A stretch of DNA of 64,000 bases, taken from contig JAFXSE010000001.1 in the NCBI GenBank assembly GCA_017525855.1, positions 7,066 through 71,065 of the forward strand, in the 5' to 3' direction. Position 1 is the first letter of the stretch; each line of letters begins with the position of its first letter. Shown here piece by piece: positions 18,914 through 63,860 of the stretch. This stretch comes from Bacilli bacterium. Lineage in GTDB: Bacteria > Bacillota > Bacilli > RF39 > UBA660. Both the position numbers and the translations under genes were made by a program. The notes beneath the pieces are model-generated. The model was not told the origin of the DNA. It worked only from the letters and a program-made list of their open reading frames with translations, and did no database searches.

Positions 18914-21076
18914 ATGTATGTTGGTGTTTTAGTAGAATTATCTAATAAAAATATAGATAAAATTTTTACATACAGTGTACCTTCTTTTTTACAAGATAAA
19001 ATGAAAGTTGGAATACGAGTAGAAGTTCCTTTTGGAAGACAAATATTAGAAGGATTTGTAATTTCTTTTATAAATGATGTTAGTATTGAAACTAAAGATA
19101 TTATATCAATTACTTCAGATGATGTTATTTTAAATGAAGAGTTGTTAGCTCTTGGTAAAATAATGCAAAAAGAAACATTATCTACTTTAATTAGTTGTTA
19201 TCAAGTTATGCTTCCTAAAGCTTTAAAAGCAAAAAAAGGAAGTGTTGTGAATGTTAAATTTGATACTTTTTATAAATTAGGTGATGTTAGTGGACAATTA
19301 AATGATAAACAAAGAAAGATTATTTCCTTATTTAATAAAGAAGATTTAGTATTAAAAAATGAAATAGAAAAGATTTCTAAAAGTAGTTTAAAAACTTTAG
19401 AAAATAAGGGAGTATTAATAAAAGTAAAAAAAGAACATTATAGAAGATATATTGACGATAAAACAGAAGAAAAGAAACCTTTAACAATAGATCAAGAAAA
19501 TGTTGTTAAAGAATTTCTTGGTAGTGATAGTCAGTTTTATTTATTACATGGAGTAACTGGTAGTGGTAAAACAGAAGTCTATATGGAAATGATAGAAAAT
19601 GTTATAAAAAGTGGAAAAACAGCTATTGTTTTAGTACCTGAAATTAGTTTAACTCCTCAAACTATTAGTAGATTTAGTAGAAGATTTGGTAGGAAAATAG
19701 CTTTGTTACATAGTGCTTTATCAGATGGTGAAAGATATGATGAGTGGAGAAGAATTAATAGAGGGGAAGTTGATATAGTAATTGGTGCAAGAAGTGCTTT
19801 GTTTGCGCCAATTAAGAATCTTGGTTTAATAGTAATAGATGAGGAACATAGTAATTCATATAAACAAGATGATATGAATCCTAGATATGATACGGTTAAT
19901 ATGGCTAAGCATAGAATTATGCTTAATGATGGAGCAAAACTTGTTTTAGGAAGTGCTACTCCAACTTTAGACTCTTATGCTAGAGCGCTTAAGAATGTTT
20001 ATCATCTTTTAACTCTTCCTAATAGAGTTAATAAAAAAGGATTGCCTAGTATTAAACTTATTGATATGAATCATGAAATGAAAAAAGCAAAAGGTCATTT
20101 CTCATTACCTTTACTTGAAAAAATAAAAGAAAAAATAGATAAAGGTGAACAAGTAATATTACTTCTTAATAGAAGAGGCTATTCTAGTTTTGTTACTTGT
20201 AAAAATTGTGGTTATACAGTTAAATGCCCTAATTGTGATATTACTTTAACATATCATAAAACTAGTAATAATTTAAGATGTCATTATTGTGGATATGCAA
20301 CTAAAAAAAGTATAGTTTGTCCTCAATGTGGTGAGGAGTCATTGAGTGATTTAGGAATTGGAACTGAGAAAGTAGAAGAAGAGATTAATCTATTTTTACC
20401 ACAAGTTAAAGTACTTAGAATGGATTTTGATACTACTACTAGAAAAGGTGCTCACGAAAAAATGATTAATGAGTTTAGTGAGCATAAATATGATATTTTA
20501 CTTGGAACACAAGTTGTTGCTAAAGGACTTGATTTTGAGAATGTTACTTTAGTAGGTGTAATTAATGCAGATACATCTTTAAATATTCCTAATTTTAGAA
20601 GTAGTGAGAATACTTTTTCATTACTCAGTCAAGTGGCTGGTAGAAGTGGAAGAAGTACAAAAACAGGAGAAGTTATTATTCAAACTTATAATCCTACTCA
20701 TTATGCCATTGAATGTGTTAAGAGACATGATTATATAAACTTTTTTAAACAAGAAATGGATATTAGAAGAAAATTAAATTATCCACCATATTATTATATT
20801 GTTTATATTAGACTTAATAGTAAAGATAATGAAAAATGTTATAAAGAAGCTTTAAAAGTTAAAAATATACTTGAAAATAAACTAAAAAATATTATTATTT
20901 TAGGACCTAGTCAAAGTGGAGTTTTTAGAATAAATAATATTTATAGATATGGTATTATTTTAAAATATAAAAAAGAAGATAATTTAAAAGATGTTCTTAA
21001 TAAAATAATTGATGTATACAAGAGTAATACTCTTGTTACAATAGATATTAATTTTAATCCAGTAGTATTTGGATAA
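18914..21076 (+). CDS. priA: Primosomal replication restart helicase PriA
   Basis: 720 residues, full length. N-terminal DNA-binding domain, Walker A GVTGSGKTEVYMEM, DEEH box (VIDEEHSNSYKQ), and eight zinc cysteines in paired CxxC motifs (CKNCGYTVKCPNC ... CHYCG ... CPQCG). It restarts stalled forks by loading DnaB/DnaC. AGGAGG is close to the ATG. In Bacillus priA is followed by def and fmt; here pyrH and two further genes intervene and def is absent. Confidence 0.97.
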   Translation: MYVGVLVELSNKNIDKIFTYSVPSFLQDKMKVGIRVEVPFGRQILEGFVISFINDVSIETKDIISITSDDVILNEELLALGKIMQKETLSTLISCYQVMLPKALKAKKGSVVNVKFDTFYKLGDVSGQLNDKQRKIISLFNKEDLVLKNEIEKISKSSLKTLENKGVLIKVKKEHYRRYIDDKTEEKKPLTIDQENVVKEFLGSDSQFYLLHGVTGSGKTEVYMEMIENVIKSGKTAIVLVPEISLTPQTISRFSRRFGRKIALLHSALSDGERYDEWRRINRGEVDIVIGARSALFAPIKNLGLIVIDEEHSNSYKQDDMNPRYDTVNMAKHRIMLNDGAKLVLGSATPTLDSYARALKNVYHLLTLPNRVNKKGLPSIKLIDMNHEMKKAKGHFSLPLLEKIKEKIDKGEQVILLLNRRGYSSFVTCKNCGYTVKCPNCDITLTYHKTSNNLRCHYCGYATKKSIVCPQCGEESLSDLGIGTEKVEEEINLFLPQVKVLRMDFDTTTRKGAHEKMINEFSEHKYDILLGTQVVAKGLDFENVTLVGVINADTSLNIPNFRSSENTFSLLSQVAGRSGRSTKTGEVIIQTYNPTHYAIECVKRHDYINFFKQEMDIRRKLNYPPYYYIVYIRLNSKDNEKCYKEALKVKNILENKLKNIIILGPSQSGVFRINNIYRYGIILKYKKEDNLKDVLNKIIDVYKSNTLVTIDINFNPVVFG

Positions 21077-21091
21077 TGGGAGGAGTAGAGT

Positions 21092-21796
21092 ATGAAAAAA
21101 TACAATAGGATATTATTAAAAGTTAGTGGAGAAAGTTTAGCAGGAAGTAAAAAGACAGGAATTGATTTCGATAGAGTCTTAGAAATATGTAATGAGATAA
21201 AAGAGGTAAAAGAAAAAACTAAGGTAGAAATAGCAATAGTTGTTGGTGGAGGTAATTTTTGGAGAGGAAGATGTAATCTTCAAATGGATAGATGTACTGC
21301 TGATCATATTGGGATGCTTGCAACTACTATGAATGCTTTAGCAATGAGTGATGCATTTAGACAATTAGATGTAGAATCTCGTGTTCAAACAGGAATTGAG
21401 ATGAGACAAATTGCTGAGTTTTATATAAGAAAAAGAGCTGATAGACATCTTGATAAAGATCGTATAGTTATATTCGGATGTGGTACCGGAAATCCATTCT
21501 TTTCAACTGACACAGCAGCAGCCTTAAGGGCAGCTGAAATTAATGCAGACGTAGTTGTTAAAGCAACCAATGTTGATGGTATATATACTGCAGATCCAAA
21601 AAAAGATAAAAATGCTAAAAAGTTAGATAATTTAACTTATCTTGATGTATTAAATAAAAAACTTAATGTTATGGATTCAACAGCAACAACGCTTTGTATG
21701 GATAATAGTATTCCAATTATTGTATATGATATGAATACTCCTGGTAATCTACTTAAAGTAGTAGAAGGAAAAAATATAGGTACTCTTGTAAAATAG
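21092..21796 (+). CDS. pyrH: UMP kinase PyrH
   Basis: 234 residues, full length. N-terminal [21 protein letters not shown] and the C-terminal [16 protein letters not shown] match bacterial UMP kinase of the amino-acid-kinase fold, which makes UDP from UMP. Normally found between tsf and frr; here it is alone behind priA, sharing its transcript (15-base gap with GGGAGGAG), and is closed by a strong terminator. Confidence 0.96.
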
Positions 21797-21801
21797 AAAT
21801 T

Positions 21802-21820
21802 GCTCCCCTAGGGAGCTTTT
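21802..21820 (+). terminator. Terminator after priA-pyrH
   Basis: GC-rich stem GCTCCC/GGGAGC with a three-base loop and T tract. Confidence 0.9.
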
Positions 21821-21823
21821 TGA

Positions 21824-21853
21824 TTGACAAAAATACTTTTTGATGGGTATTAT
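21824..21853 (+). promoter_or_regulatory. Promoter of the variable-ended surface protein gene
   Basis: Perfect TTGACA, 18-bp spacer, TATTAT at 21848-21853 (TATAAT at 21855 is too far). The gene therefore has its own strong promoter, separate from pyrH. Confidence 0.65.
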
Positions 21854-21883
21854 ATATAATAGGAGAATATGGGAGTGAGTGTT

Positions 21884-23233
21884 ATGATGAGAGTTGGGAA
21901 ATTTAGATTAGTAGTACTTATTGCTTTATTATTGTTAACTGGAATAATTGTAGGTTATGCTTACTTAAATGGTAATTTAAGTATAAATGGTGATGCTGTT
22001 GTACAAAAAAATACATGGGATGTTAGATTTACAACAATAACTACTGTTAAAAATGATGGTGAAGTAACTACACAACCGACAGTAAGTGATAATACTAATT
22101 TAGTATTTGGAGTAAAGTTAAATAAACCTGGAGATTCATATATTTTAAATGTTGTAGTAGAAAATAGAGGAAGTATAGATGCTATGATAAGTGGAACACC
22201 GGTTATAAGTGGACTAGAAGATATGGCATCATATTTAGATTATAGTGTAACATATAGTGATAAAACTCCTATAACAGATAAAAACTTATTAAAAAAGAAT
22301 AGTACAGACACAATAAGAGTAGAACTACATTATAAGGAAAATATAACAGAAGCAGATATTGCAGGTTTATCAGAAAGTGATGTTACCAAAGTACTGAGAT
22401 TATCAGTAAAATATGTACAAGCTGATAGTAGTGCAGTACAAAGGCCTAAAATACCATGTAAAAAAGCACTAACACTTCATACAGAAACATGTGAAAGAAC
22501 ATCGGATGGGTGTATAGCAAAAGGATATGCAAATGGGGACACTATAACTTATGGACATACAAATGGAACTAGTCTAGTAAACGGACAGAGTGGAGGATAT
22601 GCACTAGACTGTGATGTATCAGGAAATGGAGACTATGAAAGATTCTATTATGTATCAGATTTATATACAGGAACAGAGAATGGAGTAGATCAGTTTGATA
22701 GTGATTATGCAGTACTTATATATCATAAAAATATAGGAACAGCAGTTGCATATAATAGTGCTAATGAAAACTGGCATGGACCAGTAACGTTACTGTCAAG
22801 TCTTCCAACAAGGAGTACATGGGCAAATGAAAACATAAATTTAAAGAGTACATCAAGAACAATTTATACCGAAAAAGGAACTACTTCAACAGATGGAGGA
22901 ACAATAGAAAATCCATTCAACTATACGGGAGCTGTAGCCAGACTCTTAACGGCACAAGAAATAAATAAAAGTTGTAATATAACAGTAGGAAGTCGAACAA
23001 CTGGAGAATTAGATAGTTGCGAATACCTAATGGAAGATAGTTATTATTCAAAAACATCAGGATGTTCAGGAGGACACTGTTATTATTGGTTAGAAACGCC
23101 TTACGCGTCGGGTTCGTACAGCGCGTGGCTTGTGGATGGCAGCACCCGCTTTGTCAACTATGCCCGCGTGAAATATGCCTATGGCGTTCGGCAGGCCGTT
23201 GAAATTCTAAAGTCTAATATCTTTCTAGAATAA
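21884..23233 (+). CDS. Exported surface protein with GC-rich, lectin-like variable C-terminus (possible DGR target)
   Basis: 449 residues. ATG 21884 has GGGAGTGAG at good spacing; ATG 21869 sits only two bases from AGGAGA. The N-terminus has a membrane or signal segment (VVLIALLLLTGIIVGYAYL), then a TasA/camelysin-like beta domain (INGDAVVQKNTWDVRF ...). The C-terminal half is Cys-containing and ends in WLETPYASGSYSAW ... AYGVRQAVEIL, the pattern of formylglycine-enzyme/C-type-lectin folds used by diversity-generating retroelements. Bases 23101-23200 are 59% GC by hand count, against an AT-rich remainder, with codons mostly ending in C or T. No reverse transcriptase or template repeat is in the window. 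It may display variable ligand-binding surface. Confidence 0.7.
   Translation: MMRVGKFRLVVLIALLLLTGIIVGYAYLNGNLSINGDAVVQKNTWDVRFTTITTVKNDGEVTTQPTVSDNTNLVFGVKLNKPGDSYILNVVVENRGSIDAMISGTPVISGLEDMASYLDYSVTYSDKTPITDKNLLKKNSTDTIRVELHYKENITEADIAGLSESDVTKVLRLSVKYVQADSSAVQRPKIPCKKALTLHTETCERTSDGCIAKGYANGDTITYGHTNGTSLVNGQSGGYALDCDVSGNGDYERFYYVSDLYTGTENGVDQFDSDYAVLIYHKNIGTAVAYNSANENWHGPVTLLSSLPTRSTWANENINLKSTSRTIYTEKGTTSTDGGTIENPFNYTGAVARLLTAQEINKSCNITVGSRTTGELDSCEYLMEDSYYSKTSGCSGGHCYYWLETPYASGSYSAWLVDGSTRFVNYARVKYAYGVRQAVEILKSNIFLE
23098..23205 (+). other. GC-rich candidate variable region inside the surface protein gene
   Basis: About 108 bases encoding residues 405-441. It starts at GCCTTACGCG and ends at GTTGAAATTC, with an abrupt change to AT-rich sequence on both sides. 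Of the 21 codons from the one after TGG to CGG, 17 end in C or T, as expected if AAC/AAT codons of a template had been randomised at A positions. No second copy of this segment was found elsewhere in the window by eye. Confidence 0.5.
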
Positions 23234-23319
23234 AACTTGAGTTATGACGGTAGAATAGATAAAAATTGCAAGATAAAAGAGATGTGTACAAGTCTTAATG
23301 AATAGCAAAATTTTTAAAG

Positions 23320-23341
23320 AAACTCCTTTGGGAGTTTTTTC
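23320..23341 (+). terminator. Terminator after the surface protein gene
   Basis: AAACTCC/GGAGTTT stem, TTTG-containing loop, T run. The 85 bases between the stop and this hairpin hold no gene that I can see. Confidence 0.85.
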
Positions 23342-23431
23342 TTTACATTATGCGTGTAAATATTAATAAATGTTGAATTTTTTTTCTTTTTTGATATACT
23401 ATAGTTAGGATAGTGTAAGGTGGTGATGAAG

Positions 23432-24619
23432 ATGTTATTTGAGAGTTTAAAATATGATTCTGTACGTACTTTCTTACAACAACTTCTGATCCAAGATAAG
23501 TATAAAAATATAGAAGCTCCTTATGAATTAAAAGAAGCCTATTATTTGGATGGCAAATATGCTTTCTTTTTAGGGATAGATGCTTTAAGTAAGTATGAAC
23601 AAATTGTTGGAGATATGTCTTTAATTGATGATTATGTTGAACAATTAAAAAGGGTATTTAAAAAGTTTAGTGATTATAATGATATAAAAAATGGAGTATA
23701 TACTTTAATACTTAAAGTTATATCTGTTAAGCTTTCAATTACTAATACTAATAGTTTTGAATCTAGAGAAAAAATACTTCATTATGTATATAATAAATAT
23801 ATTATTAATGGTTATTTTTACTTTGGTTTTATGTCTAATCATATTAATGAAATATCTTGTGTTGGAATTAGACATGATGGTTTTGTATTTGATTCTAAAC
23901 TTGATGAAATAAATGATATATTTAATAGGTATTCAAATAATAAATTATTTATAAAAAAAGATGTAAATCTTACTGATGATATTATGGTTGCTTTATACTA
24001 TGCTTTTTTGTCGCCTAATTATTTATCTAGTATGGTAGTTAATCCTCTTCTTAAAAATAAAAAGTATGATAGGGATTGTTTTTATACTAAAGATATACTT
24101 AAAATAAAAGAGATATTAATGTCTGTATGTAATAGTATTCATTTAAATAATGAGGATAAGTTGTTTGTTATTAATAGATTTATAGATGTATATGTTTCTA
24201 GTCATGTTAATAATGTTCATCCTTGCATAGCTAGAATTAAAAGATCTAGTATTGGTAAAGATAAATTGAAGGATATAGAAGAAATAGTACATAATAATGA
24301 TGAATCTCTTATTTCTTTAATGGAGTTAATTTTGGATAGTCGTTATATGGGTTATGATTTAAACTCTGATATTATGCCTGATGATATAGAAATAGTTGAT
24401 ATTCCAACTTATAATGATTTTATGATTGGTAAAAATGAGTTTGTTATGATTACTGATGATGTTTTGGTTGAAAAGTCTGATTTAGAAGTTAATGATTCTT
24501 TAGTTACACAGAATGTAGCTGTTAACTCATATGGCGCTGTTTCAGTTGCAATTGTTGGGCTTTTGTTTATAATAATAGGTGTTGTTATGACAATGATTTT
24601 ATATTTTATGGGCGGGTGA
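23432..24619 (+). CDS. Unknown protein with C-terminal membrane anchor
   Basis: 395 residues, no family recognised. A long helical, soluble-looking body is followed by a single C-terminal hydrophobic segment (SVAIVGLLFIIIGVVMTMIL) and a short tail, so it is likely tail-anchored facing the cytoplasm. ATG 23432 is chosen for its 8-base spacing from AAGGTGG; ATG 23426 is possible. fmt begins five bases after its stop, so the two share a transcript. Its place corresponds to where Bacilli usually keep def. Confidence 0.7.
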   Translation: MLFESLKYDSVRTFLQQLLIQDKYKNIEAPYELKEAYYLDGKYAFFLGIDALSKYEQIVGDMSLIDDYVEQLKRVFKKFSDYNDIKNGVYTLILKVISVKLSITNTNSFESREKILHYVYNKYIINGYFYFGFMSNHINEISCVGIRHDGFVFDSKLDEINDIFNRYSNNKLFIKKDVNLTDDIMVALYYAFLSPNYLSSMVVNPLLKNKKYDRDCFYTKDILKIKEILMSVCNSIHLNNEDKLFVINRFIDVYVSSHVNNVHPCIARIKRSSIGKDKLKDIEEIVHNNDESLISLMELILDSRYMGYDLNSDIMPDDIEIVDIPTYNDFMIGKNEFVMITDDVLVEKSDLEVNDSLVTQNVAVNSYGAVSVAIVGLLFIIIGVVMTMILYFMGG

Positions 24620-24623
24620 TATA

Positions 24624-25556
24624 ATGATAAGAATAGTTTTTATGGGGACTCCTGTTTTTAGTGTTCCTGTTTTAGAAGGATTATTAAATGATAGTAATTA
24701 TGAGGTTGTTGGTGTAGTTAGTCAACCTGATAAAAAGGTCGGTCGACATCAAGTTTTAACGCCTAGTCCTGTTTCACAAGTAGCAATTAGTAATGGAATA
24801 AAGTTACTTAGAATAGAAAAGGTTAGAAGTGAGTATCAAGAAATACTTGATTTGGATCCTGATATGATTGTGACGTGTGCATATGGACAAATTATTCCTA
24901 AAGAAGTTTTAGATTATCCTAAATATGGATGTATTAATGTTCATGCATCATTACTTCCAAAACTTAGAGGTGGGGCTCCAATACATAAAGCAATAATTGA
25001 TGGTTATAGTAAGACAGGTATTACTATTATGTATATGGATGAGGGTATGGATACTGGTGATATTATTTCTCAAGAAGAAATAGAAATACTTGATTCTGAT
25101 ACAGTCTCAATACTTCATGATAAACTGAGTGTCTTAGGAAGAGATTTATTATTAAAAACATTACCAAGTATTATTTCTGGTAATGTTAAAAGAATAAAAC
25201 AAAATAGTGATGAAGTAACGTTTGCTTATAATATAAAAAGAGAAGATGAACATATAGATTTTAATGATACTAAGAGGAATGTATTTAATTTAGTAAGAGG
25301 TTTAAATAGTTTTCCAGGAGCATTTGCAATACTAGATAAGAAGATAGTAAAAATATATTCTGGAAGATGTGGAGATTCTACTAAAGGTGATTGTGGACAA
25401 ATTATAAATATATATGATGATGGTATTGGTGTTAGAGTAAAAGATGGTGAATATATAATTACTGAATTAAAAGAAGAAGGAAAGAGAAAAGTAGCGGTTA
25501 AAGATTATTTAAATGGAAAGAAAAAAGAAGACTTATTAGGCAAGTTTTTTGAGTAG
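24624..25556 (+). CDS. fmt: Methionyl-tRNA formyltransferase
   Basis: 310 residues, full length. IRIVFMGTPVFSVPVLEGLL at the start and VHASLLPKLRGGAPIHKAI with the catalytic Asn-His-Asp set (CINVHASL ... MDTGDI) identify Fmt, which formylates initiator Met-tRNA using 10-formyl-THF. Part of the conserved priA-fmt-rlmN-prpC-prkC-rsgA-rpe block; rsmB is missing between fmt and rlmN. Confidence 0.97.
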   Translation: MIRIVFMGTPVFSVPVLEGLLNDSNYEVVGVVSQPDKKVGRHQVLTPSPVSQVAISNGIKLLRIEKVRSEYQEILDLDPDMIVTCAYGQIIPKEVLDYPKYGCINVHASLLPKLRGGAPIHKAIIDGYSKTGITIMYMDEGMDTGDIISQEEIEILDSDTVSILHDKLSVLGRDLLLKTLPSIISGNVKRIKQNSDEVTFAYNIKREDEHIDFNDTKRNVFNLVRGLNSFPGAFAILDKKIVKIYSGRCGDSTKGDCGQIINIYDDGIGVRVKDGEYIITELKEEGKRKVAVKDYLNGKKKEDLLGKFFE

Positions 25557-25564
25557 GTGAAGAT

Positions 25565-26302
25565 ATGTTTAATAAAAAGAATAAGAATAATTTATTAGGT
25601 GGTTTAGATCAAAATCCATTTTTAAAACAAATTATATTTTTTGGGTTTTATTTCTTGTTTTTTGTTGTGATTATTATCTTTCTTAGAATTAGTTTTAAAA
25701 GTATTTCAACAAAAGAGGTATCTATTAGAAAAACAGGATATGGTTATGATTATAAATTAGATAGAATTATGAATGAGAATTATCATTTTAAATTTAAAGA
25801 AAATTATGATGGTGTTGAAACTATATATGAAGGGGACTTACTTGGTGATGAAATATCATTATTTAAAAGTGGGACTCAGGCTATGGAATACTATATTAAA
25901 AAAGACAAAGCTTATTTAAAGGATGGTAATTTATTTACATGGAACGAGACAACTAATCCTATGATTTTTTATGACTTTGTAATTCCTTCAAATCTTAATA
26001 AAATTATAAAAAGAGCTAAGTATGTTTCTAAGACTGATTATATAGATAGTAAGAAAAAGACTTTTACATATTCAATAGCTAATGAAAAGATTATAGATAT
26101 TTTAGGTTTAGAAAAAAGAGAGAATGATGTTTTAGATAATACAATTGTTGTATCTATTTTAGATAATGGTAAAATTGATTCTATTAATTTAGATTTAACT
26201 AATTATTATAAATATAGTAATGAGACACTTAAGAATTATAATTTAACTTTTAGTTATTCTAAGTTTGATCAAATTGAGGAAATAGCTAATCCAATAAATT
26301 AG
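25565..26302 (+). CDS. Unknown single-pass membrane protein
   Basis: 245 residues, no family recognised. A short Lys/Asn-rich cytoplasmic head is followed by one hydrophobic segment at about residues 22-41 (IIFFGFYFLFFVVIIIFL) and a beta-rich extracytoplasmic domain of about 200 residues without cysteines. ATG preceded by AGGTGA overlapping the fmt end. It occupies the slot of rsmB between fmt and rlmN. Confidence 0.7.
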   Translation: MFNKKNKNNLLGGLDQNPFLKQIIFFGFYFLFFVVIIIFLRISFKSISTKEVSIRKTGYGYDYKLDRIMNENYHFKFKENYDGVETIYEGDLLGDEISLFKSGTQAMEYYIKKDKAYLKDGNLFTWNETTNPMIFYDFVIPSNLNKIIKRAKYVSKTDYIDSKKKTFTYSIANEKIIDILGLEKRENDVLDNTIVVSILDNGKIDSINLDLTNYYKYSNETLKNYNLTFSYSKFDQIEEIANPIN

Positions 26303-37613: not shown

Positions 37614-37898
37614 ATGCTTAAATTTAAAACTACCCAAGAACTCAAACCTAATCCTAAATTACTAGAACTTATTAAAGACTGCACTTATAAAACTAAAAAA
37701 GGAAAAGTTAAAGTTCTTGTAAATACTAATTTACAGTTTATAGAACCAACTGAATATCTAATTACATATCCCATTACTCTTACTATACTTGAATATAAAG
37801 TAAATGAAATTAGTAATAAACCATTCTACATTAAAGAGTATAAAGAAAAGTATAATTTGAAAGAAATTGAATCTTTTTTAAGAAATTTTCAAATTTAG
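37614..37898 (+). CDS. Small unknown protein of the mobile element
   Basis: 94 residues starting at the ATG that follows AAAGGAGG; an open frame extends upstream to 37533 but lacks a ribosome site. The composition is Lys/Leu/Thr-rich with no membrane segment or recognised motif. It lies between the left repeat and the recombinase gene, separated from the latter by two 62-base direct repeats, so it may be regulated with it. Its stop lies within the first repeat. Confidence 0.6.
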   Translation: MLKFKTTQELKPNPKLLELIKDCTYKTKKGKVKVLVNTNLQFIEPTEYLITYPITLTILEYKVNEISNKPFYIKEYKEKYNLKEIESFLRNFQI

Positions 37899-38009
37899 GG
37901 TATACTTTTTGCATTTAAATGAGGAAACATGTGAGAAATATTAATTTTTTTCAAATTTAGGGTTGTTTTTTTGCGCTTTTGTTAGGAAACATATGAGAAG
38001 TATTTAATA
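37886..38009 (+). repeat. Two imperfect 62-bp tandem repeats upstream of the recombinase gene
   Basis: Units begin at TTTTCAAATTTAGGG (37886 and 37948) and share GGAAACAT (37923 and 37985), an offset of exactly 62 bases. The second unit leads into a 23-base palindrome. A likely regulatory or recombinase-binding region. Confidence 0.65.
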
Positions 38010-57050: not shown

Positions 57051-57083
57051 TATAAGTGCGAAAGAAAGCATTTATATATTTAT

Positions 57084-60557: not shown

Positions 60558-61862
60558 ATGGAACAACAAATTAATGCGGTAGATTATGATAGAGGGTCTA
60601 TTAGTATTGACAATAAAAAGGTTAAAATTAGTAGATATGAACAATTGCGAAAGAGAGCTTCTGAATTTATATTGAAACAGAAAGAAAAATTCAAACAAAA
60701 TTTAAAAAAAATTATGAAAAAATTAGATAAATCAACTAGAATAGTTGATACAAGTTTAGGTGTAGTAACTAAAAAAGTCCCTATTAAAAAAACTAGACCA
60801 ATTAGAATAGAAGGACAAGGTGTTGACTTAATTAATAGGCGTGTATCAGAAATTAATAAAGAAAACAGAAAAATAATGTGGGGATATGTTTCTAATAAAT
60901 TAAAAGAGTATGGCTATTCTGATAATTTTGCTAAAGTAGCTGATAAAGTAGTAGTAGCTCATAATAAAAATGATATTTCGTTTGCTGAGAATGCTGATAG
61001 TTTATCAAAACATAATGATAAAATAGAAAAAGAAAGAGAAAAGATTAGGGAGGCTGATCAAGCTATTAGTGAAGCATTTGGAATGACTTTTTCAAAAAAG
61101 GAACCATCTGTTGATAAGATTCAAGGAGATTTAGATGCAACTGGTAGATTTAAAGAACCATTAAAATTCTCAGATAAAAAGTTGGAACCAGCTGAAATCA
61201 GTTTTAGTAATAAACCAGTATTTGAAACAGAGCCGTTAAGAATAACAGATAAGTCAAAGGAAGATAAAGAAGAGAAAAAAGAAACTAAGTTTAGTAATGA
61301 ACCAGTATTTGAAACTGGGCCATTAAGATTAACAGATGATTTGATGGCAAAACAAAGTGAAAAAGTGGCTGAAAAAAGTGGTAAAGTAGCTGAAACTAAA
61401 CAGGCAACTAATGCAACTATATCATCAGATTATAGCAATCCTGTACTTGAAGGTTTATTATCAGAATTAAAAGAACTTGAAAATGCTACTAAACAGCAAC
61501 TTATGATGAATGAACAAATAGCAGAAGCTAAAGCAGAACAAGAAAGTGCTAATAGTGATACTAAAGAAGAAGCTGCGCAATTAGCACGAAAAGCAGAAGA
61601 ATGTGATAGACAAACAATGGAAATTGTTAAAAAGAAGATTGAAGAACAAAAAAGAAAAAGAGATGCAGCTCAAGAAGAAGGAAATGTGCTTAAAGATCAA
61701 TTGTCTGAAGCAAAAAAGGCTAGTGAAGAATTACGAGATGAATTATTTAAGAAACAAGCTGCACTTGATGAGATGATAGCTAAACGTGATCAAATTGTTC
61801 AGATGATAGGTGAACCTGAAGACACATCAACTTTAGAAAAGCCAAATACTTTGAGAAAATAA
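60558..61862 (+). CDS. Unknown coiled-coil protein with repeated motif
   Basis: 434 residues, highly charged, no membrane segment. Two copies of FSNxPVFETxPLRxTD lie near 215-260 in a disordered linker, with a related KEPLKFSD just before. The C-terminal third is an extended coiled coil (LLSELKELENATKQ ... DEMIAKRDQIVQMIG). Possibly a scaffold or a cytoskeletal or division-associated protein. No homologue recognised. Operon with the DUF1292 gene; closed by a terminator. Confidence 0.7.
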   Translation: MEQQINAVDYDRGSISIDNKKVKISRYEQLRKRASEFILKQKEKFKQNLKKIMKKLDKSTRIVDTSLGVVTKKVPIKKTRPIRIEGQGVDLINRRVSEINKENRKIMWGYVSNKLKEYGYSDNFAKVADKVVVAHNKNDISFAENADSLSKHNDKIEKEREKIREADQAISEAFGMTFSKKEPSVDKIQGDLDATGRFKEPLKFSDKKLEPAEISFSNKPVFETEPLRITDKSKEDKEEKKETKFSNEPVFETGPLRLTDDLMAKQSEKVAEKSGKVAETKQATNATISSDYSNPVLEGLLSELKELENATKQQLMMNEQIAEAKAEQESANSDTKEEAAQLARKAEECDRQTMEIVKKKIEEQKRKRDAAQEEGNVLKDQLSEAKKASEELRDELFKKQAALDEMIAKRDQIVQMIGEPEDTSTLEKPNTLRK

Positions 61863-63776: not shown

Positions 63777-63860
63777 GGAGAGGTAGCGAAGTGGCTAAAC
63801 GCGACAGACTGTAAATCTGTTCCTTCGGGTTCGATGGTTCGAATCCATCCCTCTCCACCA
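63777..63860 (+). tRNA. tRNA-Tyr(GTA)
   Basis: 84 bases with a long variable arm, acceptor GGAGAGG/CCTCTCC, anticodon GTA, CCA encoded. Confidence 0.96.

Follow-up and report, generated by a model that had tools for sequence, protein, structure and literature searches.

We analysed a 64-kb stretch of DNA (the window) with a G+C content of 26.8%. Going by protein comparisons, it lies on the chromosome of an uncultured bacterium that is AT-rich and related to two genomes. By a PriA-like protein, for which 30 loci were found, the nearest relatives are Bacillales bacterium UBA7476 (G001, 76%), whose order in the current taxonomy is Caryophanales, and a MAG of Bacilli from the omasum of water deer (G002, 75%). 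The gene studied here resembles targets of diversity-generating retroelements (DGRs). It occupies 21884..23233 on the forward strand, has 34% G+C and encodes 449 residues. The frame is also open from an ATG at 21869 (454 aa), and we took 21884 as the start because the database protein P0001 matches in length (449 aa) and differs from the window protein at 2 of 449 residues. A promoter-like site precedes the gene (TTGACA-18-TATTAT, 21824..21853, forward strand, 11 of 12 matches) and a terminator-like hairpin follows it (23317..23340, forward strand). The earlier note had called the protein exported and strongly promoted. The promoter-like site is present, whereas its strength remains an impression gained from the sequence: around the gene we counted 10 promoter-like sites compared to 9.0 in shuffles, which is no excess. 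A search of 20000-26000 against Rfam gave no match. Elsewhere in the window we noticed an 84-base repeat in two head-to-tail copies (61194-61364, 74% identical) and a 62-base repeat in two adjacent copies (37886-38009, 76% identical, spacing 62 bases).

Both neighbours of the target gene are conserved and lie on the forward strand. The upstream gene (21092..21796) is 87% identical in G001 and its product is presumably the uridylate kinase PyrH. The downstream gene (23420..24619) is 50% identical in G001 and 51% identical in G002 and had no Pfam match at E ≤ 0.01. The target fills the gap between these two genes in the window, and no template is found there. In G001 the PyrH-like gene and the next conserved gene are separated by ∼130 bases without a target. 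For G002 we observed a different target with a template, and no reverse transcriptase (RT) beside them, preceding the counterpart of the downstream gene (G002:C5), with the upstream side broken by a contig end. Across these genomes, targets seem to have been gained and lost in this gap. The G002 contig that runs past the PyrH-like gene (L002:5974-7913) holds no target; by eye, one of its reverse-strand frames is transposase-like.

The predicted protein starts with a helix (residues 5-29, 21896..21970), seen in the model and hydrophobic by eye. It is followed by a beta-sandwich stalk that is loosely TasA-like (residues 41-188, 22004..22447) and by a C-type-lectin-like, DUF6273-like domain (residues 189-449, 22448..23230), all encoded on the forward strand. 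The AlphaFold2 models reached pLDDT values of 90.6 and 91.9. When the lectin-like end was compared with known structures using VIA-align, the matches listed were mostly C-type lectins. Foldseek alone gave no match at E ≤ 0.001, and a sequence search of the PDB with the family profile gave no match. Solved DGR variable proteins were absent among the structure matches listed, which is uninformative either way. According to the models the end of the protein has a C-type-lectin-type fold, with the variable residues located near its C-terminus. This agrees with the lectin-like end proposed in the earlier note, whose quoted translation (SGSYSAW ... YGVRQAVEI) is correct. The Pfam family DUF6273 (PF19789) matched residues 327-444 with 23.4 bits (E 6e-5), just missing the curated cut-off of 23.5 bits, and the close homologs P0005 and P0017 scored 16.4 and 18.2 bits. 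We thus use the term DUF6273-like for the modelled structure of the domain, which is no formal member of the family. Against PHROGs we detected a weak match to 'Hoc-like head decoration' (E 5e-5). The window protein has neither the prepilin methylation motif PF07963 nor an NCBIfam match and is thus not classed as a type IV pilin, whereas homologs such as P0072 do have PF07963 and some homologs are pilin-like. The N-terminal helix probably serves as a membrane anchor or signal, and the protein would be membrane-anchored and probably surface-exposed, with a lectin-like end that may bind a ligand.

Towards the 3' end of the gene we observed a G+C island (23099..23200, forward strand), which we propose as the variable region (VR). 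No other 100-mer of the window is as rich as 23099-23198, which has 61 G/C. The next-best 100-mers (58 G/C at 57079 and 55 at 63840) both lie inside tRNA genes, and the island tops all ten tRNA genes of the window in G/C. An earlier hand count of 59 G/C in 23101-23200 proved exact. The sharp edges described with it were found as well: the G+C content is 60% inside the island (23096-23200) compared to 36% directly before it (23001-23100) and 27% directly behind it (23201-23300). The part of the gene before the island has 32%. When the gene was dinucleotide-shuffled 500 times, the richest 100-mer had 45 G/C on average and 55 at most, so that 0 of 500 reached 61.

To describe the variability of this segment we searched ∼5.8 billion proteins, which yielded 379 homologs, and used the best 120 of them. 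Together with the window protein these 121 proteins show 100 distinct end strings. The column analysis was based on the window and the 48 nearest of the listed homologs, reduced to 45 distinct ends. The mean entropy across these ends was 2.15 bits in the VR compared to 1.10 bits in residues 231-408 before it, and 17 columns of the VR were hypervariable (at least 2.2 bits). In the window the codons of these columns start at 23102, 23111, 23117, 23120, 23129, 23135, 23141, 23144, 23150, 23156, 23159, 23162, 23165, 23171, 23174, 23177 and 23180 (forward strand). NNY codons occupy 16 of the 17 columns, 9 of them NNC, and the exception is AAA at 23171. Codons ending in C account for 19 of 410 codons before the VR and for 9 of 17 in the VR columns (Fisher 1e-7). 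As the columns were picked on protein entropy, this codon test is independent of the column choice. A previously reported figure of 17 out of 21 codons ending in C or T was reproduced for the 21 codons from 23135, while three other starts gave 15 or 16. NNY codons cannot encode K, E, Q, M or W. These residues are rare in the VR columns with 28 of 763 compared to 308 of 2247 in 52 variable columns outside, where the associated p of 5e-17 is optimistic because related sequences are non-independent events. The NNY codons and the rarity of these five residues are what A-mutagenesis of AAY template codons leaves behind.

The mechanism we propose is as follows. A DGR reverse transcriptase would copy a template RNA in which AAY codons mark the residues of the binding site, the As of the template would be misread so that AAC and AAT become NNC and NNT, and the mutated cDNA would replace segment 23099-23200 of the target gene. 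The G+C island follows from the same process, because an AAC codon randomised at both As becomes NNC, which is about two thirds G+C. For the base composition there is thus no need for the acquired cassette that had been offered as an alternative to a DGR target. For the gene as a whole, acquisition does fit the gap, which is empty in G001 and holds another target and template in G002. Some ends in the family are low in G+C and not island-like (e.g. L146, L158, L167).

Foreign DNA can show up as a G+C island, and variation is common in surface lectins. The segment could on these general grounds have arisen without any DGR, as a horizontally acquired G+C-rich cassette or by ordinary diversifying selection on a lectin loop, and the missing cognate template in all sequences searched (the window and sets of 292 and 391 genomes) points the same way. 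However, the framework within the island is that of the homologs, for which reason we rejected a foreign G+C-rich insert as the sole cause. The variable columns are also NNY and short of K, E, Q, M and W, and the related ends in relatives are template-derived. We regard an origin without a DGR as very improbable and are highly confident that a DGR has at some point written segment 23099-23200.

The window itself contains neither a recognisable DGR reverse transcriptase (best profile match E 0.098) nor a template. On either strand there were at most 7 AAC per 30 codons, compared to 8 to 16 in the templates of relatives, and an A-tolerant scan revealed no second copy of the segment. This confirms the statement of the earlier note that neither an RT nor a template repeat lies in the window. 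We also looked for a second target in the window and found none beyond a match with E 0.015. Two candidate templates were rejected: the AAY-richest stretch of the window (31467, 16 of 30 codons, all AAT) is a plain AAT run, and for a decayed template directly after the target gene six comparisons were made in which 25 to 308 of 500 shuffles scored as high. With no template or RT in the window, writing in trans from another place in the genome is most likely for this segment. Our full reading is that it is a variable region on which a DGR located elsewhere in the genome has acted remotely, in trans, and we consider this reading probable. For the window's own genome we infer such a DGR together with its template and its activity.

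DGRs are present in the relatives. We detected RVT_1 matches in 5 of 13 relatives including both closest ones, G001 and G002. All five have at least one frame with (I/L)GxxxSQ and YxDD, which we take to be the marks of DGR reverse transcriptases; in G011 this is a fragment only. Three TAG codons interrupt the DGR-type RT frame of G011 (L039 / L106), next to which lies an AAC-rich, template-like tract; the frame is either decayed or read with another code. In G002:C52 the order is target end, template, a MutS_I-domain protein (E 1.5e-9), a bAvd protein (E 4.5e-10; 'Avd protein of DGR' in PHROGs) and the reverse transcriptase (E 4.8e-16), and the cassette G001:C21 looks alike. Stand-alone MutS domain I proteins were seen between template and Avd at L105:785-1201, L104:8677-9111 and L191 (reverse strand), identified by Pfam for L105 (E 1.5e-9) and by eye for L104 and L191. 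Editing in these cassettes is specific to A. Between the G001:C21 template and its adjacent target 21 of 40 As but 0 of 67 other bases are changed, and for G002:C52 the numbers are 18 of 36 and 1 of 65 (both trimmed and gap-free). Two further template-target pairs of G001, compared untrimmed, show changes at 22 of 47 As and 4 of 80 other bases (C67) and at 22 of 51 As and 5 of 89 other bases (C62). Our alignment scoring favours changes at A, a freedom that it does not have in the gap-free pairs.

In a wider survey 100 of 292 relatives of G001 matched the RT alignment at E ≤ 1e-20, an upper bound because the weak matches include multi-copy ones that by eye resemble group II introns. An AAC-rich tract was found at 17 of the 30 RT loci fetched, one of which (L141) was then dropped by eye. 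A homologous protein was found in 13 of the 292 genomes (best five candidates scored per genome). RT matches occurred in 5 of these 13 genomes and in 95 of the 279 others and thus show no association in these incomplete drafts; neither do the genomes whose homolog match covers the lectin end (3 of 8 with an RT match).

Action in trans is suggested by G001:C27. Here a target is followed by a template and a gene that is MutS_I-like by eye, and the contig has no reverse transcriptase at E ≤ 1e-20. When compared with the C21 template, which lies on another contig, the C27 VR is changed at 27 of 40 As and 2 of 67 other bases without gaps. Its own neighbouring template fits worse, with 6 of 64 other bases changed and 13 bases gapped. 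The simplest reading of these alignments is that C27 was written in trans by the C21 template; alternatively it may once have carried a copy of that template. Remote targets that match a distant template are reported for Thiohalocapsa PB-PSB1 (PMC10907252) and for a genome with Tery_ tags (PMC8867640). The proposal that the window gene is an in-trans DGR target is supported in part: the lectin fold, the AAY-fitting columns, the A-specific editing in relatives and the remote C27 case all speak for a DGR-type target end, whereas a DGR in its own genome, the template and continuing action on this gene are putative, and the near-identical P0001 has the same VR.

We also searched for the cognate template among the relatives. 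In a DNA search with the window segment (E ≤ 0.001) 1 of 292 relatives matched, namely G001 with a different target. In the same genome G001:C8 (L112:9933-14426, reverse strand) encodes a protein of 1497 aa whose repeats are of the Listeria-Bacteroides and InlB types. It has a DUF6273 domain in its interior and a second lectin-like end whose G+C-rich segment is like that of the window. This end shares 79% DNA identity with that of the window over 72 bases, and the differences occur at all three codon positions. A template-like pattern with up to three mismatches was encountered at five places in 3 of 391 genomes, none of which is the template of the window VR. The best candidate is the G090 template, which by eye encodes the window's first framework residues and has Asn at the first six variable positions, yet 13 of the 52 non-A bases that align are different in the window. 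In G167 the templates read PRSSNTNNVWSVFGNNRNV at three places, and its pilin-like targets share the lectin module; no reverse transcriptase was found in this genome at E ≤ 1e-20. The pilin-like genes with the same module are on L185, L183 and L184, and, by eye, a shortened MutS_I-like gene begins behind one G167 template. A viral origin was considered and dropped: a scan with the family alignment gave 13 pattern matches in viral contigs, none of them a relative, and two template-like patterns had no match in viral contigs. We likewise dropped the idea that active targets are marked by a hairpin behind the VR. Such a hairpin follows the ends of C21, C52, C5 and C27, but was found neither after the cis targets C62 and C67, nor after G167:C23 and G169:C4, nor close behind the window VR, and hence is uninformative.

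The missing template and RT in the window would also be expected if the VR is frozen, that is, if a DGR wrote it in this genome, in an ancestor or in a donor, the machinery has since been lost or is out of reach, and the segment is now inherited normally. In line with this, the differences between P0001, the sole near-identical protein among the best 120 of 379 homologs, and the window protein lie outside the VR. Some ends in the family hardly change: the 13 entries within P0052-P0068 share two end strings that are one residue apart. The RT-less template-target pairs in relatives fit badly, with 20 of 77 (G002:C5) and 15 of 75 (G167:C23) non-A bases changed. On the other hand, the frame of the window gene is open and all variable codons but one keep NNY, the ends differ in nearly every nearby homolog (the 100 distinct among 121 given above), and the remote target of the closest relative fits a distant template. 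A frozen VR is thus a serious alternative, if in our judgement rather unlikely.

Part of the family may have exchanged this end as a unit. P0010 (319 aa, with a short N-terminus) has the same VR as the window and is identical to it from residue 252 to the end but different before. P0008 and P0023 show the same pattern as P0001 and P0010, with a break near residue 250. In two species we thus noticed long (449-450 aa) and short (319-320 aa) proteins that share nearly the whole of the C-terminal 200 residues including the VR, and in G015 a long and a short paralog lie side by side. The sharing reflects either module exchange between paralogs or assembly chimeras, as both pairs come from metagenome contigs. 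The breaks near residue 250 and the adjacent paralogs would fit a history in which recombination with a paralog (swapping or gene conversion) gave the gene a ready-made lectin module, its diversity coming from such exchange and not from retrohoming into the gene. Such exchange accounts for the spread of the A-to-N signature but not for its origin, and the two pairs may be chimeric. As the whole explanation we find it improbable.

Within the preferred reading of remote writing by a DGR, exchange could still play a part. We tentatively suggest, as a possibility that we would not yet call likely, that in this lineage of Bacilli with small, AT-rich members many dispersed surface proteins with lectin tips depend on a small number of DGR reverse transcriptases, with scattered templates, exchangeable gaps and modules that move between long and short paralogs, and that the window gene is a member of this antibody-like repertoire. 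One lectin module would then sit on beta-sandwich stalks, pilin-like stems and short membrane anchors, and the templates would be cassettes not bound to write the adjacent target, as the fit of G001:C27 to the C21 template illustrates.

Surveys that need target and reverse transcriptase side by side overlook remote targets; a large DGR survey says that its own design misses targets remote from the RT (PMC8144416). The present case shows that one gene can suffice to recognise a remote DGR target, through its G+C island, NNY codons and lectin-like fold. The results point to uncultured, animal-associated Bacilli as carriers of hypervariable lectin-like proteins that are chromosomal and anchored. 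Should remote templates be the rule in these bacteria, more gut proteins undergo targeted hypermutation than current estimates suggest.

Finally we compared the window gene with known systems. Faecalibacterium prophages have DGR targets with DUF6273 and the VR at the C-terminus of the domain (PMC11792537), and the 'tentaclins' of crAss-like phages are DUF6273 DGR targets with a lectin fold (PMC10743442). The window protein shares with both the DUF6273-type, lectin-like domain and with the prophage targets the C-terminal VR. Those are phage proteins with the DGR in the phage genome, whereas the window gene is chromosomal, its product has an N-terminal helix and a stalk, and no DGR lies within the window. 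The IgA peptidase of Thomasclavelia ramosa (PDB 9qa6, PMC12402451) is a secreted enzyme with a DUF6273 domain that has 15-16% identity to the window domain. In Bacteroides, hypervariable pilus tips are reported to be diversified by DGRs (PMC12632263); they are bacterial surface appendages, and some window homologs are pilin-like, but they belong to another phylum and another pilus type, and the window protein itself is not pilin-like. The TasA fibre subunit (PDB 8aur) matched the stalk weakly and was tied with unrelated beta-sandwiches. In the open literature we found no paper combining diversity-generating retroelement and TasA. The window gene resembles the remote targets of Thiohalocapsa PB-PSB1 and of the Tery_-tagged genome, presumably Trichodesmium, in that no RT was found near its VR within the 64 kb; there, in contrast to the window, the template was identified and variation was seen. 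Further counterparts are the G002:C52 and G001:C21 targets, which share the GVRP-type end and have an AAC-rich template and A-specific change of their own. Their framework (YWLGSA... or FWLGSA...) belongs to another subclass than that of the window (YWLETP...), and their template is not that of the window. The window gene is thus a probable further DUF6273-type DGR target, whose chromosomal, stalked and remote setting is unusual.
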